Positions 17,739 through 31,076 of a DNA stretch of 64,000 nucleotides are shown piece after piece. Each line of letters starts with the position of its first letter. Position 1 is the first letter of the stretch. Below the pieces are notes generated by a model, which was given only the letters and a program-made list of their open reading frames with translations, was not told the origin of the DNA and ran no database searches. Position numbers and translations under genes: made by a program. Source of the stretch: Gemmatimonadaceae bacterium (GTDB taxonomy: Bacteria; Gemmatimonadota; Gemmatimonadetes; Gemmatimonadales; Gemmatimonadaceae); assembly GCA_025358925.1 (NCBI GenBank), contig JANYHT010000037.1, forward strand, positions 1-64,000, written 5' to 3'.

Positions 17739-18650
17739 ATGCGCGTGACAAATCAGAGCCTCATCTTCACCAGCCAGAATCGCCTGCAGGCGAACATGCA
17801 GGGGATAGAGCGGCTGCGTGAAGACGTGTCGTCGGGCATTCGCTTGCGCAAAATGTCCGACGATCCGGCGTCCGGAAGCGAAGTGGTTCGCGTCAGCAGC
17901 TCCATGCGCGCGCTCGCGCAGTTTCGTCGCAACATCAATATCGGGAATGCGCAAGCGTCGGCCGAAGAGGGCGTGCTGAATGATGTGAGCAACGTGCTCA
18001 CACGGGCGATTGAGCTCGGCGTGGGGCAGTCGGGATCGACGTCGACTGCGCAGTCGAGGACGATTGTGAAGGCGGAAGTTGATCAGCTCCTCAGCCACGC
18101 CGTTGACACAGGAAATACCAAATTCGGCGACGACTATTTGTTTGGTGGCACACGCAGTGGCGAGACGCCATTTCAGTTACCAACAACCGCGAGTGGACCG
18201 TTCTCTCGGCTGCTTGACACCGGCGGATTCTCCGTGAATCCCAGCGGCAATCGCCAGATTGAGATTGGTGACAACAAATTTTCGACGCCAACACACAACG
18301 GCACGGAGGTGTTCCTCACGTCCGACGTGCTGGAATCATTGCGCGCACTCTCAACCGCGCTCGGTGCAAATAACGTTGCCGGCATTACCGCCGCAACCGA
18401 TCGCATCACCGTCTCGAATAACAACGTCCAAACACTGCTCGGTACCCAGGGCGCACGCATTAACGAACTCGATACGCAATCCGCCACCCTGAACACATTG
18501 GAATTGTCGCTGAAAGCGTACCGATCAGATTTGCGCGACACGGAAGTTGACAAGGCGCTCGTTGAGCTCACGGGCAAACAGACGATGTATCAAGCAGCAA
18601 TGAGCGCGACCTCGCGAATTCTCAGTCTCAGCTTGGCGAACTACCTCTGA
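17739..18650 (+). CDS. flgL: Flagellar hook-filament junction protein FlgL
   Basis: A 303-residue flagellin-like protein starting MRVTNQSLIFTSQNRLQANM. Flagellin-type N-terminal (residues 1-140, SGIRLRKMSDDPASGSEVVR) and C-terminal (about 215-303, MYQAAMSATSRILSLSLANYL) helical regions flank a small central domain. It forms the junction between hook and filament with FlgK, which is not in this window. fliW follows after six bases. Confidence 0.95.
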   Translation: MRVTNQSLIFTSQNRLQANMQGIERLREDVSSGIRLRKMSDDPASGSEVVRVSSSMRALAQFRRNINIGNAQASAEEGVLNDVSNVLTRAIELGVGQSGSTSTAQSRTIVKAEVDQLLSHAVDTGNTKFGDDYLFGGTRSGETPFQLPTTASGPFSRLLDTGGFSVNPSGNRQIEIGDNKFSTPTHNGTEVFLTSDVLESLRALSTALGANNVAGITAATDRITVSNNNVQTLLGTQGARINELDTQSATLNTLELSLKAYRSDLRDTEVDKALVELTGKQTMYQAAMSATSRILSLSLANYL

Positions 18651-18655
18651 CCTCC

Positions 18656-19165
18656 ATGACCACAGCTCTTCAGTCCGACGCATCTGTTAGTGACGTTGCG
18701 CTTCGTTGCATTACATCGAGCGCCATCGGCGACGTTGACGTGCCATCGTCCGCCATCATGCACTTCCCTGTTCCGCTCGGCGGCTTCCCTGATCGGCATG
18801 AGTTTGCGTTGCTGCCCGCCGCGCGTACTGGCCTGTGGTGGTTGCAGTCAACAGACGATCCCGATCTGACGTTTATTTTGGGCGATCCGTTCGTGCTCGA
18901 CGTGGCGTATGCGATTGATCTGGGTATCACCGATCGCGACATGTTGCAGATCGAACACGAGACCGATGCCTTCACGTTGGTGATGCTCACGCTCGCGCCG
19001 TACGCGGAATCGGCCACGACTGGAAATTTTCGCGCACCGCTGGTTTTCAATTTGGCGCGAGGGCGTGGACTGCAGGTTGTCAGTCGTGACGACGCGCACA
19101 ACGTGCGCCGACCGGTTGACGTGTCCGCGTACCCGTCGCAGACGCACGGACTACGTATTCGCTAG
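18656..19165 (+). CDS. fliW: Flagellar assembly factor FliW
   Basis: A 169-residue FliW-family protein; the core has GGFPDRHEFALLP, TFILGDPFVL and TGNFRAPLVFNLARGRGLQVV (about residues 40-150). In other bacteria FliW binds flagellin or CsrA and so ties flagellin translation to its export. It lies directly after flgL, as is common. The usual neighbour csrA is not seen; a glycosyltransferase follows instead. The N-terminus is about 25 residues longer than typical. Confidence 0.92.
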   Translation: MTTALQSDASVSDVALRCITSSAIGDVDVPSSAIMHFPVPLGGFPDRHEFALLPAARTGLWWLQSTDDPDLTFILGDPFVLDVAYAIDLGITDRDMLQIEHETDAFTLVMLTLAPYAESATTGNFRAPLVFNLARGRGLQVVSRDDAHNVRRPVDVSAYPSQTHGLRIR

Positions 19166-19174
19166 CGGCGCGTC

Positions 19175-20983
19175 ATGTCCGCTCTCTCCCGACCGCTCCC
19201 TCCCGACGCGGCCATCGAAAGCATCCAGTGTGGCGCGAACGGTGTGCCGCGATTTCGCGTGACGCCGCGCCCTAGTCATCGTGACTGGGCCGCGACAGTC
19301 GACGCTGAGCGCGAGGGTGGCGTTGCTGCAGAGTTCCGCATGTTCCTTGACGCACAGCTCGCCGACGACGATTTGCTGTTGGACCTTGATCCGGCGTTTG
19401 GATTTGTGTCGCTCAGCGCCGCGACAAAACCCGAAACACGCCATCACGTCCTCACGATTGCTGACGGTGAATGCGCGGCCACACTGCTGCAAAGCGACGC
19501 GCGAAGCGCGGGAGTGTCGCTAACCCTTGCCCAGCGATCGCAGGTAGAGACGGATGGATTGGCTCCGCTCGTTACGCGCTCGCATGCGCACATCGCACAA
19601 CTGTTTGTTCACGTTGCGCCAGATCGCGTTCGCACGACACTGACGTCCCTGCAATCACTGACTACGTCGGGCCACATTGCCGCAATCCTGTGCGATGCAC
19701 GCAATCTGCGCGCGGTGGACGGGGCGCTACTGTATCAAACTCTTACCCTGGCCGGGTTCGTCCCACATCAACTCGCGGAGCAGGACAACGAAGCCATTCT
19801 GATTGCAATGTCCGTTAATGACCCACCAGCACCGATCATCGCGTTGCATGCGCGTTCAATACCGCAGGTCGACGTGTCGACGTTCAGTGTGCGGGGGGTG
19901 TCGGCGGCCGCCGAACCATTTGGCCCAATCAACTTCATTGCGCCGTTCTGTCGGACCGGCTACGGTGTGACGGGCGCACATTTGTTGAAGGCGCTTGTGG
20001 AAGTCGGCGCCGACGTCGCGTACTTTCCGCTCGGTGCGGTGGATCGCCGGATTGCGGAAGTGCCGACACTTGATCGAGCGTTGGCTCGACAAGATGATTT
20101 TGATCGAAAGGCGCCGAGCGTGCGTTTGGCGCAACAGTTTGACCTTGCGACGCATGTGGGGTCGGGTGAACGCATCGGATTTCCAATCTTCGAAATCAAT
20201 CAGTTCACTGCGCGCGAACTGCATCATCTGCGAGCGCAGGATCGACTCTTCGTGTGCAGCCGTTGGGCGCGCGAGGTATTGCGCAACAATGGGATCACAC
20301 ACATCCCAATTCACGTCGTTCCCCTCGGAGTTGATCGGACAGTTTTCAATGAAATGGTCCCTTCAGTTCGGTCAATCAACGACACCGTTTTCATTCAAGT
20401 TGGGAAACTCGAACCTCGAAAAGGGCAACTCGACCTGCTGCGCGCATTTGAGGCGGCGTTTCGCCCCAATGACGCCGTGCGACTCTCCCTCTACTGTCAC
20501 AATCCGTTTGTCGACGCAGCGACGCTCGCACGAGCGCTCCATCCGTTTCGAACGTCTCCGATGTCGCGACGCATCGACCTTCACACCGACCCCCTTGCCA
20601 CTCACCACGACGTGGCCCGCGTGATGCGCGGAGCTGATTGCGGTGTGTTTTGTTCGCGGGCCGAAGGGTGGAATCTCGAAGCGCTGGAAATGCTCGCGGT
20701 GGGCAAACCCGTTATCGCAACAAACTACAGCGGTCATACCGAGTTTCTGAGTGACGAAAATGCGCATTTAATACACGTGGATCATCTGGAGATGGCCGGT
20801 GTCGGCGCGTGGGCAGCATTCGGGGCACGCCAGCATGAGCAGCTCGTCGAACACTTGCGTACCGTGCATGCCGCACGTCGTGTCGGCCCACTTGATCTCA
20901 ATCGAGCCGGCATCGACACCGCAACGCACCTTAGTTGGAAGAATGCGGCGACACAGATGCTACGCGCGTTGAACGAGCACTAA
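19175..20983 (+). CDS. Two-domain protein: FkbM/methyltransferase-like N-terminus and GT4 glycosyltransferase
   Basis: A 602-residue protein. Residues about 50-215 resemble a degenerate FkbM-type methyltransferase fold (ADDDLLLDLDPAFGFVSL), without a convincing glycine-rich SAM loop. Residues about 245-600 are a GT-B glycosyltransferase of family 4: FIAPFCRTGYGVTGAHLL, VGKLEPRKGQLDLLRAF and the nucleotide-sugar site FCSRAEGWNLEALEMLAVGKPVIAT. It starts nine bases after fliW and so probably shares the sigma-28-type promoter of flgL. A role in flagellin or other surface glycosylation is inferred from this position. Confidence 0.85.
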   Translation: MSALSRPLPPDAAIESIQCGANGVPRFRVTPRPSHRDWAATVDAEREGGVAAEFRMFLDAQLADDDLLLDLDPAFGFVSLSAATKPETRHHVLTIADGECAATLLQSDARSAGVSLTLAQRSQVETDGLAPLVTRSHAHIAQLFVHVAPDRVRTTLTSLQSLTTSGHIAAILCDARNLRAVDGALLYQTLTLAGFVPHQLAEQDNEAILIAMSVNDPPAPIIALHARSIPQVDVSTFSVRGVSAAAEPFGPINFIAPFCRTGYGVTGAHLLKALVEVGADVAYFPLGAVDRRIAEVPTLDRALARQDDFDRKAPSVRLAQQFDLATHVGSGERIGFPIFEINQFTARELHHLRAQDRLFVCSRWAREVLRNNGITHIPIHVVPLGVDRTVFNEMVPSVRSINDTVFIQVGKLEPRKGQLDLLRAFEAAFRPNDAVRLSLYCHNPFVDAATLARALHPFRTSPMSRRIDLHTDPLATHHDVARVMRGADCGVFCSRAEGWNLEALEMLAVGKPVIATNYSGHTEFLSDENAHLIHVDHLEMAGVGAWAAFGARQHEQLVEHLRTVHAARRVGPLDLNRAGIDTATHLSWKNAATQMLRALNEH

Positions 20984-21089
20984 TCGACGCATCGACGTGC
21001 GGCGAGTTCTGCCCGGCAAATGGTGCCGAATTTTCCGCGGCGTGATCAGGCAAAATACGCAAGATGATGTATTGTCTACACTTACCGCG

Positions 21090-21105
21090 TGGCACGCACA
21101 ATGCA
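21090..21105 (+). promoter_or_regulatory. Putative sigma-54 promoter of the GDPD/nucleotidyltransferase operon
   Basis: TGGCACGCACAATGCA carries a perfect -24 element (TGGCACG), the invariant GG-N10-GC spacing and a near-consensus -12 (ATGCA for TTGCA). Predicted start of transcription is near 21116, about 60 bases before the first gene of the operon. It is the best sigma-54 match I found in the window. Confidence 0.7.
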
Positions 21106-21178
21106 TTTGCAATAGTAGAAGTGCGGCCGTCGAAGCGAGTGACGCGCCGTCAAGCGACGCTGCGACATTCGCGGCACG

Positions 21179-21895
21179 ATGCTGAGGAACCCACGTCTGT
21201 TAGTCATCGCCCATCGCGCCAATCTCAACGGCGCCGAGCCACAATTCGAGAACACATTAGAACGTACTCGCGAGTGTATCGCGCGTGGATGGTCTGTGGA
21301 AACGGATATCCGTCGCGACGCGGCAGGTCGGTTTTACGTGAGTCATGATCGAGCCGAGTGGAGCGACGCGAACGACGCCGCGGCATTCTGCGCGCTCTGG
21401 CGTCACGCGCGCATACCGATCGCGCTTAACGTCAAGGAGCTTGCGTACGAAGCGGAACTAATCGCATTTCTGCGCGCACAGGATGTACTGTCGCATGTGT
21501 TTTTGTTTGATATGGAACTGTTGGAATCGACGGCGGGCGAGACGGCTCGGCGTTTTCGCAGCCTTGATGCGAACGTACGACTTGGCGCGCGTGTCAGTGA
21601 TCGCAACGAGCCCATCGCGCAGGCGCTCGCCATTCACTGCACGGAAATTGTTTGGCTCGACGAGTTTGACAGCGCCTGGGCGGTAGCGTCTGATGTTCGT
21701 CTGCTGCATGCGCACGGACGACTCGTGTATGCGGTGTCACCGGAACTACACGGCGCTTCGTCGTCGGTCATGCGACGTCGATGGACGCAGTTGATCGCGT
21801 GGGGTGTGGACGGTATTTGCACAGACGCACCAACGCAGCTCAACCGCGTACTGACGACAGCGCGAGCAGACACGCAGACGCCGGTTGCCGCATGA
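21179..21895 (+). CDS. Glycerophosphodiester phosphodiesterase-family protein
   Basis: A 238-residue TIM-barrel protein of the GDPD family. Active-site landmarks are present: AHRANLNG (the usual HRG Gly is Ala), QFENTLE, SVETDIRRD and FYVSHD. GDPDs cleave glycerol-3-phosphate esters. Here the gene opens an operon of sugar-activation enzymes behind a sigma-54-type promoter, so a role in making or trimming a glycerol-phosphate-like glycan part is possible. No signal peptide, so it is cytoplasmic. Substrate unknown. Confidence 0.85.
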   Translation: MLRNPRLLVIAHRANLNGAEPQFENTLERTRECIARGWSVETDIRRDAAGRFYVSHDRAEWSDANDAAAFCALWRHARIPIALNVKELAYEAELIAFLRAQDVLSHVFLFDMELLESTAGETARRFRSLDANVRLGARVSDRNEPIAQALAIHCTEIVWLDEFDSAWAVASDVRLLHAHGRLVYAVSPELHGASSSVMRRRWTQLIAWGVDGICTDAPTQLNRVLTTARADTQTPVAA

Positions 21896-22233
21896 ATCAT
21901 TCGCGATTAGATGCGATGCATCGTGGCTGGTTTGTTGGGGCATTCGCTCCAACCGCATTCGCTACACCTGATTGTGAGGTTGGGGTCAAACGCTATCGCG
22001 CCGGTGACGTAGAATCCGCGCACGTGCACCGCGTTGCAACCGAACTCACCGTGGTGATCTCTGGGCGTGTCCGAATGAACGGCCGAGAATTTGGCGCCGA
22101 CGATATCATCACGCTGGCACCGGGCGTGCCTGCGAATTTTGAAGTGCTGGAGGACGCTGTGACTGTTGTCGTGAAGGTTCCGTGCGTCGCTGGTGACAAG
22201 TACCCTCATCCTGACACTGGACTATCCGCATGA
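21892..22233 (+). CDS. Cupin-domain protein
   Basis: A 113-residue single cupin. The motif-1 region is KRYRAGDVESAHVHRVATELTVV with His pair and Glu; motif 2 is PGVPANFEVLEDAVTVVV. Cupins include sugar isomerases, epimerases and dioxygenases; nothing here narrows that down. ATG at 21892 overlaps the GDPD stop by four bases, and the stop overlaps the next gene by four, so it is tightly coupled inside the operon. A longer upstream frame is only GDPD shadow. Confidence 0.82.
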   Translation: MNHSRLDAMHRGWFVGAFAPTAFATPDCEVGVKRYRAGDVESAHVHRVATELTVVISGRVRMNGREFGADDIITLAPGVPANFEVLEDAVTVVVKVPCVAGDKYPHPDTGLSA

Positions 22234-22874
22234 ACACCATCAAGGCTGTTCTGTTTGATCTCGATGGTGTCCTGATTGACGCGACCGAGTGGCACTACAA
22301 GGCGCTCAATCGATCACTCGGTCTCTTCGGTTTTACGATCTCTCGCTACGACCACATGGCGACGTATAACGGATTGCCCACGCGAAAAAAACTGGAGATG
22401 CTTTCAGTAGAGTCAGGGTTGCCCACGTCACTGCATGCGCTCATCAACCGCGTCAAGCAGGTCTACACACGTGAGGAAATCCTGGCCAGCTGTTGGCCGA
22501 CGTTTGAGAAGGAGTTCATGATGAGCCGCCTGCGACGTGAGGGCTATCGGATTGCCGTCTGTTCTAACGCCATTCGCGAGAGCGTGGAACTCATGCTCGC
22601 GCGCGCTGGGCTGCTGGAGTACGTCGAGTTCATCCTCAGCAATGAAGACGTGAAGGCGCCGAAGCCGGATCCTGCGATCTACCAGCTCGCGATGTCCCGC
22701 ATGGGCATCGAAGCGCATGAGGTGGTCATCGTGGAAGACGCAGCGCATGGCATTCTCGCCGCGCGCCGCGCTGGCGCGCACGTGTGTGAGGTCGCCGGAT
22801 TCCACGAAGTGGACTATTGGCGAATTCGACGCACGATCGATGCGGTGGTGAATCCTGTTCGGCAGGCGGCATAG
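22230..22874 (+). CDS. HAD-superfamily phosphatase/phosphomutase
   Basis: A 214-residue HAD hydrolase of the beta-phosphoglucomutase-like group. Motif I is LFDLDGVLIDAT with the nucleophile Asp, motif II is SNAIRES, and motifs III/IV are KAPKPDP and VVIVEDAAHG. A helical cap lies at about residues 18-80. It probably dephosphorylates, or shifts the phosphate of, a sugar phosphate for the two nucleotidyltransferases that follow. Confidence 0.87.
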   Translation: MNTIKAVLFDLDGVLIDATEWHYKALNRSLGLFGFTISRYDHMATYNGLPTRKKLEMLSVESGLPTSLHALINRVKQVYTREEILASCWPTFEKEFMMSRLRREGYRIAVCSNAIRESVELMLARAGLLEYVEFILSNEDVKAPKPDPAIYQLAMSRMGIEAHEVVIVEDAAHGILAARRAGAHVCEVAGFHEVDYWRIRRTIDAVVNPVRQAA

Positions 22875-22878
22875 GCAC

Positions 22879-23619
22879 ATGTTGACTATCGTTATTCCAA
22901 TGGGAGGAGAGGGTCGCGCGTTTTCAGAGCGCGGCTATTCATTTCCGAAGCCGCTCATCGAAATTGATGGACGCCCGATGATCGAGTACATCGTGCGCAA
23001 TCTGTCACCATCAGAGCCGCACGAATTTGTATTTGTTTGTCGGGAAGACCATCTAAAGAAGTACGCGTTGGGCGAGGTGCTTCGGCTGGTCGCGCCCGGC
23101 TGTCATATCGTGTCCATGCCCCAGCCCACAGCGGGCGCGCTGTTCAGTGTATTGCTCGCCATGGACCACCTCTCACCGCATCATGAATTACTCGTTGCGA
23201 ACGCCGATCAGTTTATTGATCGCCCCATTGACGAGTTTCTCTTCTGCGCGCGCGGACCTGGCACCGACGGCTGTATTCTCACGTTTCCCAATACGCATCC
23301 CAAGTGGTCGTACGCCCGCATTGAAGGCGGGCAGGTGGTCGCGGTCGCTGAAAAGCGGCCAATCAGCAACAGCGCGACGGCGGGCCTGTACTATTTCCGC
23401 GAGACTCAAACATTCATTGACGCGGCCGAGCGAATGATTTCAAAAAACGCGGCATTAGGCGGTGAGTTTTTTGTCTGCCCCGTGTATAACGAGCTCATTC
23501 TTGCCGGCAGCCGCATCACCGCATTTCCGGTCGGTCGCAGCGAAATGCATTCGCTTGGCACGCCGGAAGATCTTGAGCAGTTTCGCAGCGGTCGCGCCCG
23601 GGAGCTCGCCTATGCATGA
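22879..23619 (+). CDS. Sugar nucleotidyltransferase (first of two paralogues)
   Basis: A 246-residue Rossmann-type nucleotidyltransferase: IVIPMGGEGRAFSERGYSFPKPLIEI (nucleotide-binding loop and catalytic Lys), the metal-binding ANADQFID, and EFFVCPVYNE. It should activate a sugar phosphate with an NTP. It is clearly related to the next gene but well diverged, so the pair may use two different sugars or nucleotides. Small single-domain form without an acyltransferase. Confidence 0.88.
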   Translation: MLTIVIPMGGEGRAFSERGYSFPKPLIEIDGRPMIEYIVRNLSPSEPHEFVFVCREDHLKKYALGEVLRLVAPGCHIVSMPQPTAGALFSVLLAMDHLSPHHELLVANADQFIDRPIDEFLFCARGPGTDGCILTFPNTHPKWSYARIEGGQVVAVAEKRPISNSATAGLYYFRETQTFIDAAERMISKNAALGGEFFVCPVYNELILAGSRITAFPVGRSEMHSLGTPEDLEQFRSGRARELAYA

Positions 23620-24370
23620 TGCGGTGCTCACCATTGTACTCCCCATCGCCGGTCGTGGTAGTCGGTTTGCAGAGGCAGGCTACGTTGAACCAAAGCCGCT
23701 CATTCCGATTTTTGGCACGCCGATGATTGCGCTGGTGGTGGCAAACGTTCGCCCATCACGTCCACACCGTTTCGTATTTGTGGCACAGCAGGAGCATCTC
23801 GAGGGCACGTCACTACGCAGCGTCTTGGAGCGCAGTGCGCCAGGATGCGCTATTGTGGGCATTGACCACGTAACGGACGGCGCCGCCTGTACCGTGTTGG
23901 CGGCAAAAGAATTTGTCGACAACGATCGGCCGCTGATGCTCGCGAACAGCGATCAGTACGTAGATGCGGATATTGATGCGTTCTTGGCGACGTCAGATCA
24001 CAACAACGTGGACGGGTTGATCATGACATTTCCCGCCGACCATCCGAAGTGGTCGTACGTACGTCGTGATGCAGCGCACAACGTCGTAGAAGTCCTTGAA
24101 AAACAGGTCGTGTCGAACGAAGCAACGGTGGGCATCTATAATTTCCGTCGCGGACGAGATTTCGTTACTGCGGCCGAAACAATGATTTCGCAAAACAAAC
24201 GCGTCAACGGAGAGTTCTACGTCGCACCCGTATACAATGAACTGATTAAAAATCGTGCGCATATTGTGACGCACGATATCGGGCCACGCATGCATGGTTT
24301 GGGCGTGCCGACCGATCTTGAACAATTCTTAGCATTACCATGGACGCGAGCGCGAGCGCGAGCGGCGTAG
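23612..24370 (+). CDS. Sugar nucleotidyltransferase (second paralogue)
   Basis: A 252-residue paralogue of the preceding gene: IVLPIAGRGSRFAEAGYVEPK, LANSDQYVDADID and GEFYVAPVYNELI. ATG at 23612 overlaps the previous stop by eight bases; the longer upstream frame is a shadow. It ends the plus-strand operon, 12 bases from the convergent glycosyltransferase operon. Specificity cannot be read from sequence alone. Confidence 0.87.
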   Translation: MHDAVLTIVLPIAGRGSRFAEAGYVEPKPLIPIFGTPMIALVVANVRPSRPHRFVFVAQQEHLEGTSLRSVLERSAPGCAIVGIDHVTDGAACTVLAAKEFVDNDRPLMLANSDQYVDADIDAFLATSDHNNVDGLIMTFPADHPKWSYVRRDAAHNVVEVLEKQVVSNEATVGIYNFRRGRDFVTAAETMISQNKRVNGEFYVAPVYNELIKNRAHIVTHDIGPRMHGLGVPTDLEQFLALPWTRARARAA

Positions 24371-24382
24371 ATCCGACCGACG

Positions 24383-25444
24383 CTACACGAAGATCGACGC
24401 CGCGCTCGGTTGTGTTGCCAGAAGCACCACAAGGGCTTGCCGCAGCTTCTCGCCCGAGAGACAATCCTGCGTTCCAGACAAAATGCCGACAACTGCATCG
24501 GTCATTCCGTTGACGTCCGCCGGCTCAAAGCACAGTGTGGGATTCAAATTAATTTCGCGTAACGATGAGACATTCGTGGTGATTGCGGGCACGCCTTCCT
24601 GTTGGGCTTCCAACACCGGTAACCCGAGACCCTCATACAACGAAGGAAAGAGCAAGACCGCCGACTGCTGATACAGTGCTTCGAGCTGCGCATCATCAGC
24701 ATCCCGATGCCATTGATGCGGTATGCCCGCGTCGGTCAGCTTGGCGAAGAAGTCGAGCACACTTTGCGTGGATGTACGCTCGCGCCCAACTACGTTGACG
24801 TTGAAAGTCTTTCGTTGATATGCCGCTGTCAGAATACCAGCAATCTGCTTCAGATTCTTTCGCTCGTCGAGCACGTTGACTAAAAGCACAGTGTTCGCGC
24901 TTGGCGCCCGAGCAACCGTGTCGTCGACCTCGAATGGAAAATGAGTAGTCACGGCTAACTCACTTCGCACCGGCCCGTACAAGTCGAGAAAATCCTGACG
25001 GGTGCTGGCACTGATACACGTGATCCGCTTTGCGTATTTCAGATAGTAGCGAAACCCCATGTCATGCTCGTGCGCAAATCGAAATATGCCGGACGAACTC
25101 GAGAATCGTAAACAGCCGCACGCAATCAGATTGGGCACTAAGTCATAAACGATACCGATGCACCCTGGCAATTCCGGCATGCCACGTGCGCACAGCCACG
25201 GGTTCGTGATGACGGTAGTTGCATAGTTGGCAGGCGTGGCATGATTGCCTGACCACTCCAGTGTGGTCTGACCGCTCTGCGCATCGACACCAACGTGTAA
25301 GAGTTCAATCGCGCCATTCTTTGGCGAGCCAAGTGCGACCTCAACCCCTTTCGTTTCAAGCGCGGAGATATAATGAATGATCACGCGCCGAACACCAACA
25401 TGTGCTGTTAGAAACGCTGGTTCAACGACAAACAATGCGTTCAT
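24383..25444 (-). CDS. Glycosyltransferase family 4
   Basis: A 353-residue GT-B glycosyltransferase. The acceptor-side half is about residues 1-180; the donor-side half has VLLVNVLDERKNLKQIAGIL, FPSLYEGLGLPVLEAQQEG and VPAITTNVSSLRE. Soluble, cytoplasmic. It is the last gene of the minus-strand FkbM-MT/GT-GT4 operon, starting inside the stop of the preceding gene (ATGA). Confidence 0.9.
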   Translation of the reverse strand: MNALFVVEPAFLTAHVGVRRVIIHYISALETKGVEVALGSPKNGAIELLHVGVDAQSGQTTLEWSGNHATPANYATTVITNPWLCARGMPELPGCIGIVYDLVPNLIACGCLRFSSSSGIFRFAHEHDMGFRYYLKYAKRITCISASTRQDFLDLYGPVRSELAVTTHFPFEVDDTVARAPSANTVLLVNVLDERKNLKQIAGILTAAYQRKTFNVNVVGRERTSTQSVLDFFAKLTDAGIPHQWHRDADDAQLEALYQQSAVLLFPSLYEGLGLPVLEAQQEGVPAITTNVSSLREINLNPTLCFEPADVNGMTDAVVGILSGTQDCLSGEKLRQALVVLLATQPSAASIFV

Positions 25445-27573
25445 TGCGTCACCGAATGCACATCAGCGGATAGATCAAGCGCGCGTATGAGTGCATCCGC
25501 CGCGCCACCGTTCGTTTCCTCAATGAGGCGAGTGTATTTCGGTCGACTAAAATCCTGCTCGTCTGCAGCGAGCTCGTAGCTGCGGCGTTCAAATCCGATC
25601 ACGCCCACGGCATTACTCTCTAGCATCAGCACGTCGGAGAGCAAAGTTCGCGAACTAAACCCATTCACCAACAACTCCGGCGCAAAAGCATTCAAGTCAG
25701 CGATGCATTGCAGCAGGTACGGCGCCTCTGCCGCAAATCGCTGCCAGTCGATATTCTGCAGTTCGAATCCTACGCTAGGCAACTCGGCGCACGCATCACT
25801 CAGTATACGTATGATCGCATCAGGCCGAGCATGACGCCGGAGCGCAGTAAGAAATGGTGTGAGGTCCTGTTGAGACTGACGATCCGTAGGTAGCACCACC
25901 GCGAATCGTTGCGCGCCGCGTGCGAGCGTTTGCAGATCGCACACGCACAGCGACGCTCCATCGAGCGCGGCAAACACGTTGGCGTGCGTCACGATAGTGC
26001 GCGCGCTTTCGCGTGTAACAGGAAGCGGCACCCCAAGCGTCCAACCAGCCGGCTGCATCTTGAGACCGCCCACGGCTAAGGGCGCTGTGTTCGAGCGCAC
26101 GTGCAGACGGCATACGCGTGTCAACGCGAAACATTCCTTCGAAATGTCAATGCGCAACAGCGCTGGAGAGATCGCCACCGCATGTTGCGCGATGTCGTTC
26201 ACCATTACCGCTAGTGAATCCGAGTGTCCAGAGACACTGAGCCAGAGTTCGACGGTGCTCGTTGGCCGATCCGCGAGCATAAATGCAATCTCGCCGAACA
26301 CGCCAGCGTCCAAGCGCAGACCGTCGGCGGTGACCGTGAAAGCGCTGTCGACATAAACACCCATCTCCGCAGCCGCGCGTCCCCACCGGTGTCCAAAACG
26401 CACTTGCTGTGCAAACATAAGACTGGGCGTGTGAATCTCACCATTTGCCGCAGGCGGACCGGACACATGATAGCGATCGGGCAGTGACGGCATCGGCTCA
26501 AACGATTCCATCGTACCGGCGCGCGTGACGGTCGAGCACACGGTCACGGCTCTCGCCAACCGAGGCACATGGCCTTGACTCCGCAATCTTCGCGTCAGCT
26601 CCACATCTTCCGCTTGGTTCCAAAAAAGTAACTCATTCCATCGCGTGTCCTTCAAGTGCTGCGTTTTGGCAATCATGATGCCGCCATTGATGTACAAATT
26701 GCGCGTCCAATCGCCGTACTCGAGAATCGCAGGAGGAGACCACGACCATTCGCAGCCGAGGGCCACCCAATCCGGGAATCGACGTCCGTCCGGGCGAAGT
26801 TGTCGACAGACGAGAAAGGAAAAATCACCACCAAATTCCTGCAGACGCGTGATGAAGTCTGTATTGATCGTGTAGCGGTCGTGCGCGATGATGAGATTTT
26901 CGTATCGCGCGTGATCCACAATCTGATTCTTCTTTCGAGTAATCCATCCCTGTTCGACAAACTCGTTCGTGTCGGCAACGAATACCACATTGGGAAACGC
27001 GGCGCATACGTCAGTTGCAATACATGACGGTCCGCACACCACAATTTCCGCGATGTACGCCGCAGAGTGGTCGAGCGCGAGTACGCTGGCAATAAACGCA
27101 AAGAGCTGACCCTGGCGTTTTCCGTCAGTAATAACACCGAATGAAAAAGACTCGGCGCCCATCGGACGTGGAGTGGCGCGCGTGTTCTTTACGGCAAACT
27201 GCGTCGCTCCATCTTCGTCAATAAATTCAAACTGCGGTACAATGTCTCCCCACATGTACAGTTGATTTTTCAATTCAAAAATCGAGCAAAGTTTGGTATT
27301 CGTCATACGAATGATCAGGACGCCGCCCGGCGCAAGCAACCGTAGCGCTTCGTCCACGACCAACGGCCACGCCTTGATAGTGCCCAAGTCGCGTTCGACG
27401 AGATACACCAGTTGAAACGACTGGTGGAATGTCGGTGGCATGCGAAAATCGTGCGACGGGTCGAGGATGTGCTCGCTCGCCTGCATGCGCGCCAGCGGTG
27501 GGATCTTACCGGCCCAGAAAACGCGCGCGTCGCTCGCGAGCATCGCCCTCAGTGCTGCGTCCTGCGCAATCAC
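25441..27573 (-). CDS. Large methyltransferase-like/GT2 hybrid glycosyltransferase
   Basis: A 710-residue protein starting at GTG 27573, whose GTGA overlaps the stop of the FkbM gene; the frame is open further upstream but only as shadow. Residues about 1-150 look like the end of a class I methyltransferase (RLLAPGGVLIIRMTNTKLCS). Residues about 160-410 resemble a GT2 glycosyltransferase (IIAHDRYTINTDF, then NQAEDVELTRRLRSQG). Residues about 410-710 are unfamiliar: a beta-rich stretch, then an alpha/beta part. Probably builds or modifies the glycan made by this island. Domain borders are approximate. Confidence 0.78.
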   Translation of the reverse strand: MIAQDAALRAMLASDARVFWAGKIPPLARMQASEHILDPSHDFRMPPTFHQSFQLVYLVERDLGTIKAWPLVVDEALRLLAPGGVLIIRMTNTKLCSIFELKNQLYMWGDIVPQFEFIDEDGATQFAVKNTRATPRPMGAESFSFGVITDGKRQGQLFAFIASVLALDHSAAYIAEIVVCGPSCIATDVCAAFPNVVFVADTNEFVEQGWITRKKNQIVDHARYENLIIAHDRYTINTDFITRLQEFGGDFSFLVCRQLRPDGRRFPDWVALGCEWSWSPPAILEYGDWTRNLYINGGIMIAKTQHLKDTRWNELLFWNQAEDVELTRRLRSQGHVPRLARAVTVCSTVTRAGTMESFEPMPSLPDRYHVSGPPAANGEIHTPSLMFAQQVRFGHRWGRAAAEMGVYVDSAFTVTADGLRLDAGVFGEIAFMLADRPTSTVELWLSVSGHSDSLAVMVNDIAQHAVAISPALLRIDISKECFALTRVCRLHVRSNTAPLAVGGLKMQPAGWTLGVPLPVTRESARTIVTHANVFAALDGASLCVCDLQTLARGAQRFAVVLPTDRQSQQDLTPFLTALRRHARPDAIIRILSDACAELPSVGFELQNIDWQRFAAEAPYLLQCIADLNAFAPELLVNGFSSRTLLSDVLMLESNAVGVIGFERRSYELAADEQDFSRPKYTRLIEETNGGAADALIRALDLSADVHSVTQ

Positions 27574-28460
27574 GTACGCTGCCTTAGGACCATCTGGAGC
27601 CGTTCGAGCTGCGCGTCGCGATGCCTGACCGCCTCGCCCAATCGTTGCGTCTCCGCGCATTCTCTCGCCAACGCATCCTCGATCGTGGTCAAGCGCTCCA
27701 GCACGCGTTGCATATCGGCGAGGTCGCGGTCGGGCTTCAGACTGTCCGAAGGTGCATGCCAATAGTGCTTGCCGTCATACAGTTGGATGCCGCGTAACCG
27801 AAGCGTCGCTTCTATGTCTTGCGGGTTAAGATCGTGACGACAGAAAAAAACATTGAATTCGTTCGATGCGTGGTCGTTCGGCTTAATCGCATAGATAGAA
27901 AACCCGAGCTCGTGCAGTCGAGTCATGACGGCACGCAGATCGTGCGTTTCCTGCGCGTACAGCTTTGCCTTGATCGTCGCGGGCACCTCGAGCATGCCAG
28001 CCTCCGTCCGACCGAGCAGTGCACCGAGGGATTCGAGGACGGCGAGGTCGACACCTTGTGCGTCGATCTTGATGAAGCGAATGCGTTCGGCGGAGTGAAT
28101 TTCCGGCACGGTGTCCAAACGCGTGACCGACACGTCGATTTCGTGTTCGAAGTAGAGGTCGGTGCGCGTGCGCCAGTATTCGTCAGTCGCGACACTGGTG
28201 GCGTCAAAATCGAGTAAGCTCGAGACCCCTTGGTCCGCGTGATTGGCGATGTGAAAGACCGCCGTGCGCTCCTCAGCGTCGACAGCGAATTGGAGCACGG
28301 TCAGGTTACCGATGCTTCGCTCGGCCGCGCGCGCCCGCAGTTGGTGGCAGAGTGAGGGAATCGGTTCGAAGGCCAATACATGCACGTTCGGATTTCGCTC
28401 GGCCACGTCAAGCGCAAAGCCGCCGAGATTCGCACCAACATCGATCACCAAGTCCTTCAC
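27570..28460 (-). CDS. FkbM-family SAM-dependent methyltransferase
   Basis: A 296-residue methyltransferase. The SAM loop is VIDVGANLGGFAL near the N-terminus, with VLAFEPIPSLCHQL and RIRFIKIDAQGVDLAVLESL, all typical of the FkbM family that O-methylates sugars. The last 60 residues are a charged helical, coiled-coil-like tail (RVLERLTTIEDALAREC), unusual for FkbM and perhaps used to hold partners. First gene of the operon behind the sigma-54-type promoter at 28551-28566. Confidence 0.9.
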   Translation of the reverse strand: MKDLVIDVGANLGGFALDVAERNPNVHVLAFEPIPSLCHQLRARAAERSIGNLTVLQFAVDAEERTAVFHIANHADQGVSSLLDFDATSVATDEYWRTRTDLYFEHEIDVSVTRLDTVPEIHSAERIRFIKIDAQGVDLAVLESLGALLGRTEAGMLEVPATIKAKLYAQETHDLRAVMTRLHELGFSIYAIKPNDHASNEFNVFFCRHDLNPQDIEATLRLRGIQLYDGKHYWHAPSDSLKPDRDLADMQRVLERLTTIEDALARECAETQRLGEAVRHRDAQLERLQMVLRQRT

Positions 28461-28550
28461 GGAGCTATCTCAGGGTTAACGCTGAAGTGCGCGCCGACGC
28501 AGTCGCCAATGCGCAATCAGCGGTCTGGTAGCAGAACACACGTCACAAAA

Positions 28551-28566
28551 GCAAGTGCGATGCCAA
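28551..28566 (-). promoter_or_regulatory. Putative sigma-54 promoter of the FkbM/glycosyltransferase operon
   Basis: Minus-strand TTGGCATCGCACTTGC followed by TTTTG matches the -24/-12 consensus closely with the GG-N10-GC spacing. Predicted start of transcription is near 28540, about 80 bases before the FkbM-family start. The neighbouring sequence 28565-28625 is AT-rich for this genome. Confidence 0.68.
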
Positions 28567-28678
28567 TGACATGGAAATACGTAAAGTGTTGCTGGATAAT
28601 AATGTACAAGAATATCGCCATCGATACCGTATCACAGAATGGGCAGTGGTTGCCATGCGCAGTATCGCCACTCGGCAA

Positions 28679-30100
28679 TTATTGCCGTCGTCCGTTCGTA
28701 AATTCCGGATCGGCCAGGAGCGCCGTCACTACACTCGACCAGTTGCCGGGCGTTGCTTGGCGTACGAGCCGAACGGTGGGATACCACGGCGTGCTCGTAC
28801 CGTGCAAACCCCAACGCCAATCGGGCACGGCTTGCAGCAACACCCACGTGCGAAGACCCATCGCGCCCGCCAGATGAGCGACGCCCGTGTCCGTTGTCAC
28901 GACACCGTCGAGCGATGCAAGCAGCGTTGCGGTGGCGGACCAATCCGCCACAGCGGGCGAACGTTCAAGATCAGGAAACGCAACGTCGCCGGCCGGTCCC
29001 TGTTGCAGCGAAATCCAGTGAAGGCGCCGATCGCGAAGCAATGCGGGTAGCTGTGCCACCTCAAGGTCGCGCGTGAGTCGGCCCGCAAACGCTGGATTGC
29101 CCGCCCACACGAGTCCAATTCGCGGGACGTTGTTGCGCGCGTTGTGTGATGACGAAATGTCGTGGTGCGGCGCATGGAAATACGGCACGCCTGCCCCCAA
29201 CACCGCGTCATCAAGCGCGAGTCGATGCGGGAGCGATAGCATGGGCACATGCCAATCGGTGCTGACCGCCGTCCCTCGCGCAACGGCATCAAAACCGTTG
29301 GTACGAAAGAGTGAGACGGCATCGGCATGACATTCCACGACAGCGCGCGCGGCACCACGTTCTGCTAACAGCGGAATGAATCGCGCAAACTGGAATTGAT
29401 CACCGACACCTTGTTCGGCCGTGACGAGCACCGACGCGCCGTCCAGCGGCTGACCGTGCCATGGCATTGCGGATGTTTGTGGCGTAGGAAGCGCGCGCGA
29501 CTCGAACAAGGCCCAGCCGTTGGCACTCGCGCCGCCCAACAGCGTGGTGTACGCGCGCTGCAAGTGCGTCGGTGCATGCTGTGGACGAACGGCATCGGCA
29601 CGATCTAGCCATTGCAGTGCGCCAGGTAGATCAGCGAGGTCGTGTCGCACCTGCGCGGCGGTGAGCAGGAATGCTGCGTGCTGTGGTGCGATGGTGAGAG
29701 CTCGATGCACGAAGGGCCATGCCGCGTCGGGTTGACCCATGGTTCGCATCGCACCGGCGAGTGCGGCGAGTCCAGCGGGATCGTGCGGGCGCAGCTCGAC
29801 GACGCGCGCAAAACACGCCGCTGCCTCCGCCGCCGCGCCCGCGTCCAACAACGCTGCACCGAGCGAAAGTGCGGTTGCAGCGTCGGCCCACGTCGCGTGT
29901 GTGTACGTGTGCAGCAACGCGCGGCGCACGCCTAATACATCGCCCGCCAGACGATAAACATTGGCGACCATCACGCCGAGACTCGACTCGGTGGGAAAGG
30001 CGTCCCGCACGATCGTGAAGGCGTCAATCGCGGCGGCGAAATTACCCGCTTCGAGAGCGGATTGGGCCTGTTCGAGCAGGAGGAGCTGGGCGGAATCCAT
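28679..30100 (-). CDS. TPR-repeat glycosyltransferase (heptosyltransferase/O-GlcNAc-transferase-like)
   Basis: A 473-residue protein. Residues 1-200 are tetratricopeptide repeats (ALEAGNFAAAIDAF, AAACFARVVELRPHDPAGLA). Residues about 215-470 are a GT-B fold with IGLVWAGNPAFAG, LQQGPAGD, VVTTDTGVAHLAGAMG and DWRWGLHGTSTPWYPT. Proteins of this build are common beside flagellin genes and are thought to glycosylate protein, with the repeats holding the acceptor. It is divergent from fliC, about 200 bases away, which makes flagellin the leading candidate substrate. Confidence 0.88.
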   Translation of the reverse strand: MDSAQLLLLEQAQSALEAGNFAAAIDAFTIVRDAFPTESSLGVMVANVYRLAGDVLGVRRALLHTYTHATWADAATALSLGAALLDAGAAAEAAACFARVVELRPHDPAGLAALAGAMRTMGQPDAAWPFVHRALTIAPQHAAFLLTAAQVRHDLADLPGALQWLDRADAVRPQHAPTHLQRAYTTLLGGASANGWALFESRALPTPQTSAMPWHGQPLDGASVLVTAEQGVGDQFQFARFIPLLAERGAARAVVECHADAVSLFRTNGFDAVARGTAVSTDWHVPMLSLPHRLALDDAVLGAGVPYFHAPHHDISSSHNARNNVPRIGLVWAGNPAFAGRLTRDLEVAQLPALLRDRRLHWISLQQGPAGDVAFPDLERSPAVADWSATATLLASLDGVVTTDTGVAHLAGAMGLRTWVLLQAVPDWRWGLHGTSTPWYPTVRLVRQATPGNWSSVVTALLADPEFTNGRRQ

Positions 30101-30203: not shown

Positions 30204-30230
30204 TCAAGTTCCTGATGGTCGCGACGACAC
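30204..30230 (+). promoter_or_regulatory. Putative sigma-28 promoter of fliC
   Basis: TCAAGTTC, an 11-base spacer, then GACGACAC. It matches 11 of 16 positions of the flagellar sigma-28 consensus with the exact spacer. The transcript would start near 30237, leaving a leader of about 70 bases with a strong ribosome site (GGAGGAT) before the ATG. Confidence 0.55.
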
Positions 30231-30308
30231 TGAGATCTGACCGCGATTCGATCATCGAGTCCGGGCGAGGCACGGATGCCTCAATTCAACATCACGGAGG
30301 ATAGTCTC

Positions 30309-31076
30309 ATGCGTATCAACACGAACGTCGGCGCACTTACGGCCTCGAAGAACATCTTCGTCAACGAAATGGCGACGAACAGCAGCATGGCGAAGTTGAG
30401 CTCAGGTTTGCGTATCAGCCGCGCGGCAGATGACGCCGCCGGCCTTTCCATTGCGAACAAGCTTCGCACGCAGAGCCGTTCGTTGACCGCCGCATCGAAT
30501 AACGCCGAGCAGGGCAGCGCGATGTTGCAGATCGCGGAAAGTGCCGCTTCGACGATCCAGAAGATCATTGAGCGTCAGAAGGAACTGATCACGCAGTCGC
30601 AATCGTCTGGCAACAACAGCACCGTGAGCGCGACCCTCGGCACTGAAATCTCCACGTTGCAGACAGAGTCGGCCCGTATTCTCGCGGCGTCAGACTTCCA
30701 AGGCGCGAACGTGTTCGCGTCGCTCACATTCCAAGTGCGTGACTCAGCGACGAGCGGTACGGTGACGGTGAACGCCGCGCTGACCTTGACGTCCTTGAGT
30801 GGTGCTTCGTCGTTGGCAAACGCTGATACGGCGCTTGACGCGGTCAACTCGACGCTCGCCAACATTGGTGCAGGTCAGTCGGTGCTCGATTACACGGTGC
30901 AGAACTTGAAGTCTGCCATCGTGAACGTCCGCGCCGCGGAGTCCGTGATCCGCGACGTCGACATGGCCGAAGAAATGGCCAACTTCACCAAGAGCAACAT
31001 CCTCAAGCAAGCAGCCGAAGCGATGTTGTCGCAGGCGAATCAAGGCAGCCAAGGCGTGTTGCAGCTCCTGCGATAA
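30309..31076 (+). CDS. fliC: Flagellin FliC (short form)
   Basis: A 255-residue flagellin: N-terminal MRINTNVGALTASKNIF and LSSGLRISRAADDAAGLSIA, C-terminal VNVRAAESVIRDVDMAEEM and NILKQAAEAMLSQANQ. Only the D0/D1 core and a short Ser/Thr-rich middle (about 100-170) are present; the variable D2/D3 domains are missing. I start at ATG 30309 because GGAGGAT lies eight bases before it; a start 33 bases upstream would add a foreign N-terminus that flagellin export does not tolerate. The middle offers many Ser/Thr sites for O-glycosylation. It is the only flagellin in the window. Confidence 0.97.
   Translation: MRINTNVGALTASKNIFVNEMATNSSMAKLSSGLRISRAADDAAGLSIANKLRTQSRSLTAASNNAEQGSAMLQIAESAASTIQKIIERQKELITQSQSSGNNSTVSATLGTEISTLQTESARILAASDFQGANVFASLTFQVRDSATSGTVTVNAALTLTSLSGASSLANADTALDAVNSTLANIGAGQSVLDYTVQNLKSAIVNVRAAESVIRDVDMAEEMANFTKSNILKQAAEAMLSQANQGSQGVLQLLR

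Follow-up and report, generated by a model that had tools for sequence, protein, structure and literature searches.

FlmG of Caulobacter crescentus is a cytoplasmic O-glycosyltransferase of flagellin with docking through tetratricopeptide repeats (TPR), a soluble protein of TPR and GT-B-like parts that is served by a dedicated sugar pathway leading through the NeuB synthase to pseudaminic acid (PMC7591256). In Enterobacteriaceae and Geobacillus, highly variable blocks of sugar and glycosyltransferase genes, some of them with FkbM genes, are found at the flagellin locus (PMC4875605, PMC5109656). A locus that resembles both was analysed in a stretch of 64,000 nucleotides from a Gemmatimonadaceae bacterium (the window: positions 1 to 64,000 of contig JANYHT010000037.1, assembly GCA_025358925.1). 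Between the flagellar genes fliW and fliC, glycosyltransferase and sugar-synthesis genes stand together in a series of ten intact genes, A to F on the plus strand and G to J on the minus strand, where the preliminary description of this DNA had counted nine; the kinds of gene that it had named are upheld. The region is likely to be the locus at which a Gemmatimonas-type bacterium encodes O-glycosylation of its flagellin; here J would transfer the first residue to the flagellin FliC, B to F would make an activated residue, and H, I, G and A would complete the glycan, within a slot that is refilled from species to species while J is kept.

As in the FlmG system, a TPR-type transferase is accompanied by candidate genes of a dedicated pathway. 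In contrast to that system, the locus is without NeuB and has a different set of five genes (B to F), possesses several further glycosyltransferases and an FkbM enzyme, and has its transferase gene abutting fliC. Whereas the island of Enterobacteriaceae occupies the interval from fliC to fliA, the present one lies between fliW and fliC in a different phylum, and its TPR glycosyltransferase is kept in nearly all islands; neither "cupin" nor "phosphodiesterase" occurs in the texts of PMC4875605 and PMC5109656. To call the locus an undescribed system, as had been proposed, goes too far, because such islands and FlmG-type transferases are known, and it is not new in kind (PMC7591256, PMC4875605, PMC5109656). 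Apparently new are the genus-wide Gemmatimonas slot with its kept TPR transferase and the use for flagellin of a widespread, seemingly undescribed five-gene pathway. A literature search found no paper on flagellin glycosylation in Gemmatimonadota and no description of the five-gene set, the latter being weak evidence of absence.

The window genome (4.0 Mb) was compared with 29 further genomes of its genus (30 in all), which we take to be Gemmatimonas; the comparison draws partly on fragmented metagenome-assembled genomes (MAGs), and sister genomes are not independent of one another. DNA upstream of fliC was taken from the genus genomes and compared with the window proteins, at least one upstream gene being readable in 22 relatives. 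In 21 of these, the neighbour of fliC, transcribed divergently from it, is a homologue of J, mostly 39-57% identical, with a paralogue of 30-31% in two; the exception (L101) has tandem flagellins and J-type genes about 7 kb away. The minimal slots (L092 and L095) hold a distant J (30-31%) as the sole gene from fliW to fliC, and complete slots range from 1.3 to 17.4 kb in length. The 177 slot proteins, with those of the window among them, were grouped at 35% identity, which gave 101 clusters, 64 being singletons. J forms the sole near-universal cluster and A is common to five genomes, its homologues in the islands of four relatives being 46-53% identical; B to I of the window share no cluster with any other genus slot in this comparison, of which the relative L116 (described below), from another collection, was not part. 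Across the genus, the interval from fliW to fliC is a glycosylation locus of fixed site whose contents change between relatives. Tandem flagellin genes are present in two genus genomes, L087 and L101.

Some of these slots hold genes of the classical pathway. PseC, PseF and PseI in L044, and PseB, PseC and PseF in L093, exceed NCBIfam equivalog cut-offs, with PseG- and NeuB-type proteins under cut-off in addition. Elsewhere RmlB (L090), RmlA (L091), WecB (L096), a DegT aminotransferase with a hexapeptide protein (L082), proteins of LuxC, LuxE and AMP-ligase types (L097) and one of asparagine-synthase type (L088) were found. Five relatives have true matches to NeuB (E 1e-73 to 1e-86); in three of the five (G180, G307 and G068) the match shares a contig with fliC and stands 8-17 kb upstream of it. 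The window genome has no true NeuB; of its two weak PF03102 matches, the one checked is a DAHP synthase and was rejected as a candidate. The earlier statement that pseudaminic and legionaminic acid pathway genes are missing is thereby borne out, and the relatives would use the nonulosonic pathway where the window genome has B to F. The earlier choice of flagellin as acceptor likewise appears likely, given the variability of the slot, PseB, PseC, PseF and PseI in sister genomes, and a B-to-I block beside flagellins in another phylum.

J (28679..30100, minus strand; 473 aa) is an FlmG-like protein in which TPR_19 and TPR_14 score above cut-off at the N-terminal end. In its AlphaFold model (pLDDT 92) a TPR superhelix, with residues 1-199 forming helical repeats that match the TPRs of O-GlcNAc transferase (OGT), precedes a glycosyltransferase-like domain. 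In Foldseek the full-length model matches the protein O-fucosyltransferase SPINDLY and OGTs best among PDB entries (1e-11). The VIA-align rows for J cover mainly the TPR part and say little of the glycosyltransferase half. Besides adjoining fliC in 21 of 22 genus relatives, J is linked to a flagellin sugar pathway in Azospirillum brasilense Sp7 (L115), where a homologue (40% identity over 346 residues) stands among pseG and pseI near an annotated flagellin; this flagellin gave no tblastn match with the window FliC and is known by the annotation of the record. Because of its TPR and glycosyltransferase-like architecture, the SPINDLY and OGT matches and the Azospirillum linkage, J probably works like FlmG.

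Fatty acid-CoA ligase, SDR and ketoacyl-synthase genes are also present near the flagellin and pse genes of Azospirillum (14.8-19.0 kb of L115), and the LuxC, LuxE and AMP-ligase genes of one Gemmatimonas slot lie at 10294-14850 of L097; acyl decoration of flagellar sugars is possible in both.

The genes of the five-gene set are all on the plus strand. B (21179..21895; 238 aa) encodes a GDPD-fold phosphodiesterase-like enzyme, 24.1 bits to PF03009 against a cut-off of 23.6, whose GDPD catalytic residues are present, H12, R13, E41, D43, H56 and K86 being kept in at least 90% of 74 sequences. C (21895..22233; 112 aa) is a small cupin with no Pfam match; it has 54-55% identity to members of this gene set from elsewhere, among them one annotated as a cupin, and its HxH...E motif (H43, H45, E50) is conserved among 75 sequences. 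D (22230..22874; 214 aa; PF13419, 2e-32) is a HAD enzyme of the beta-phosphoglucomutase/sugar-phosphatase type with motifs conserved in 75 sequences; it matches TIGR02009 at 2e-28, but under the equivalog cut-off. F (23612..24370; 252 aa; PF00483, 2e-9) is a canonical nucleotidyltransferase of sugar-1-phosphate type with the motif GxGxRF, of which G14, G16 and R18 are kept in at least 90% of 80 sequences. E (22879..23619; 246 aa; PF12804, 4e-14) is paralogous to F, as had been noted, but is no ordinary nucleotidyltransferase: in place of GxGxR it reads MGGEGRAF in the window, and the signature is lost or altered across its homologues. Together B to F probably supply a nucleotide-activated, non-nonulosonic residue.

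A species-genome collection was scanned with an alignment of E and F, which yielded 80 loci, 68 of them with all five genes. Gene orders in the complete sets are FBDEC (34), BDECF (28), BCDEF (4, L116 among them) and CFBDE (2). By record title the 80 loci belong to Pseudomonadota, Bacillota, Planctomycetota, Acidobacteriota, Verrucomicrobiota, Cyanobacteria, Elusimicrobia (without E), Synergistaceae and Gemmatimonadota. The nearest plasmid-borne relatives of E and F sit with a HAD phosphatase, a phosphodiesterase-like protein of 200-240 aa and often a small cupin. Of the 68 complete sets, 33 have a WavE-type gene with them and 18 an H-like glycosyltransferase. Proteobacterial sets such as those of Ruegeria (L104) and Pseudomonas alcaligenes (L106) share the protein families (24-58% identity) and have H-like or WavE-type proteins nearby, but stand by O-antigen ligase, flippase or ABC-transporter genes, mostly in the order BDECF or FBDEC, whereas the window has BCDEF. 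Among the 80 loci, flagellar genes lie within the flanks of L116 and L120 only, and B to F alone are therefore no flagellar marker.

The remaining enzymes flank this set. A (19175..20983, plus strand; 602 aa) is a GT4 glycosyltransferase (PF13692, 4e-13) with an N-terminal domain of unknown type, and G (24383..25444, minus strand; 353 aa) is another GT4 enzyme (PF00534, 2e-15). I (27570..28460, minus strand; 296 aa) is an FkbM methyltransferase (TIGR01444, 4e-22). H (25441..27543, minus strand; 700 aa) is a multidomain glycosyltransferase with no Pfam match; in its model (pLDDT 69) Foldseek recognizes the fold of GT-A enzymes in the middle domain, the other domains being too uncertain to name. 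It had been called a hybrid of methyltransferase and GT2; the methyltransferase part is not confirmed by the low-confidence model. The likely start of H is at 27543, because in L116 the longer frame is interrupted at codon 7 by a stop, and in L120 a single frame comprises both I and H; with this start, the 190 bp overlap of H and I reported before disappears.

L120, a contig of 16.6 kb from an Opitutae MAG (Verrucomicrobiota), carries B-C-D-E-F-I-H-G on one strand with 49-72% identity to the window (52% for the G homologue), and two flagellins lie on the opposite strand about 0.7 kb past the G frame. It differs from the window in its single-stranded arrangement, in the fusion of I and H in one frame, and in G, which forms the start of a frame of 1406 residues with further glycosyltransferase-like sequence; J was not found on the contig. 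H is otherwise rare: the remaining Gemmatimonadota genomes sampled gave no full-length homologue, nor did 235 additional genomes from the class to which L120 belongs, and H has no match on plasmids. Combinations of I, H and G with the five-gene set are present in Aquabacterium and Paraburkholderia, with no flagellin within the flanks.

The ten island genes are real and under purifying selection. L116, a contig from a Gemmatimonadaceae MAG, has the order flgL-fliW-A-B-C-D-E-F-G-H-I-J, identical to that of the window. Between the two, with J compared over residues 99-473, the ratio of nonsynonymous to synonymous substitution rates (dN/dS) is 0.01-0.19 for all ten genes (0.17 for A) at dS of 0.3-0.9, and the ten corrected frames contain zero internal stops. 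Constraint is strongest in C (0.032), D (0.016) and E (0.011). A recent exchange of C-D-E between the two genomes was considered and rejected: protein identity is 97-99%, but DNA identity only about 90-94%, so that purifying selection accounts for the likeness. E has lost its nucleotide-binding signature, yet has the lowest dN/dS of the island; it may be a pseudo-enzyme or have an altered activity. The most diverged coding stretch is the C-terminal half of H (25700-26600 of the window), where DNA identity is 72-79%, compared with about 91% around D and E.

From gene content, conservation, linkage, the TPR fold of J, the absence of NeuB and the purifying selection, we infer the acceptor, the transfer, the order of the steps and the nature of the sugar as follows. 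D, by its family, would act on a sugar phosphate as a phosphatase or as a mutase of the beta-phosphoglucomutase group, and B, likewise by family, would cleave a phosphodiester, the two processing a phosphorylated precursor that C possibly isomerises. F would then couple the residue to a nucleotide, giving an NDP-residue, with E as its divergent partner. The TPR domain of J would dock flagellin in the cytoplasm and J would transfer the first residue to Ser/Thr of FliC, as FlmG does. Ahead of FliC export, H (with I), G and A would transfer, extend and methylate the glycan; I is the predicted methylase by family, and H may be the transferase of the B-to-F product because H-like enzymes accompany 18 complete sets. 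Across the genus, cassettes for pseudaminic acid, dTDP-sugars or acyl transfer would refill the interval that separates fliW from J and fliC, so that species may change their flagellar glycan and keep J.

Some of the evidence weighs against this reading. The locus is known here from its genes; J is likened to FlmG by architecture and gene linkage, and its glycosyltransferase domain reaches no Pfam cut-off (GT9 at 19.6 bits against 22). Against whole OGT and SPINDLY chains, TM-scores of J are at most 0.36, so that the relative placement of its domains is not supported. In another Gemmatimonadota genus a locus with a short flagellin (L255) is without J at that place. Elsewhere B to F are found mostly in polysaccharide loci, and their product could also feed another glycan; because of this and of the frequent WavE-type genes, the set is not flagellum-specific. 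A position mostly beside lipopolysaccharide or capsule loci, which the preliminary description had named as telling against a flagellin island, thus applies to B to F across phyla and not to the slot, to J or to the B-to-I block. These same polysaccharide loci, with their H-like glycosyltransferases and WavE-type genes, would favour a lipopolysaccharide or capsule locus that happens to sit among flagellar genes, J and the other glycosyltransferases building a lipid-linked glycan. Such an arrangement is highly improbable, however: no polymerase, flippase, ABC exporter or ligase is present among the ten genes, a J-type gene stays with fliC throughout the genus as the other contents of the slot vary, the same slot in relatives holds pseudaminic-acid genes, and the B-to-I block adjoins flagellins in another phylum.

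It is unlikely, though less so, that B to F attach to flagellin not a sugar but a polyol linked by a phosphodiester, such as glycerol phosphate or a similar compound. Glycerol-phosphate-like chemistry had been guessed at from the names GDPD and HAD; the conserved GDPD catalytic residues and HAD motifs are compatible with it, as is the membership of F in a nucleotidyltransferase superfamily that includes cytidylyltransferases. Against it, neither a polyol dehydrogenase nor a phosphotransferase belongs to the five-gene set, the closest group to D is the beta-phosphoglucomutase/sugar-phosphatase one, and the linked transferase H is GT-A like. Least probable of all is a decaying or silent island with no working modification: the very narrow distribution in the phylum and the lost catalytic signature of E would fit, but none of the ten genes is broken and all show purifying selection against L116, E being the most constrained.

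Within the flagellin glycosylation scheme a more specific, tentative combination can be proposed, which is somewhat less likely than not. B to F may be an undescribed multi-phylum pathway to a nucleotide-activated residue, perhaps polyol-like or phosphorylated and unlike any known flagellar sugar, in which E would take part without catalysing a reaction; this residue would here replace pseudaminic acid on flagellin, and the B-to-I block that carries B to F would pass from one flagellin locus to another across phyla. The compact B-to-F pathway recurs in about nine phyla, in capsule, lipopolysaccharide and flagellin loci, and identification of one product would annotate all of them. The locus provides a clear genetic site for flagellin glycosylation in Gemmatimonadota, in a genus with cultured, flagellated species, and the acceptor range of TPR-type transferases can be asked about directly, as orthologous transferases stand beside quite different sugar cassettes.

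The borders of the slot are recognizable in the genus relatives, where flgL (17739..18650, plus strand; 58-67% identity) and fliW (18656..19165, plus strand; 43-52% identity) have the same location, and the G+C content of the island is near that of its flanks, at 54-64%. The presumed acceptor, the short flagellin of 255 aa encoded by fliC (30309..31076, plus strand; start placed by a conserved GGAGGA), has invariant ends and a Ser/Thr-rich variable centre. The fliC leader (30204-30308) is kept genus-wide and consists of a sigma-28-like promoter, a GAGGC-ACGGAT-GCCTC hairpin whose loop contains GGA, and ACGGAGGAT at the ribosome site. The promoter, TCAAGTTC-N11-GACGACAC (30204..30230, plus strand), stands at a conserved distance of 104-108 bp ahead of fliC when the genus sequences are aligned. 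The leader has two CsrA-type ACGGA motifs, and its overall fold is unremarkable (z -0.96). A single-copy csrA is present in 27 of the 30 genus genomes. Control of flagellin by FliW and CsrA is known in Bacillus, and the leader, csrA and the bordering fliW fit control of this type.

The order flgL-fliW-fliC-fliD is widely kept in other Gemmatimonadota genera (L251-L266). Among these loci, those with a short flagellin (about 251-259 aa) have a J-type gene between fliW and fliC, or adjoining fliC, in five of the six read; those with a longer flagellin usually do not, the two exceptions among ten being genes in very long frames. Glycans may take the place of the missing outer flagellin domains.

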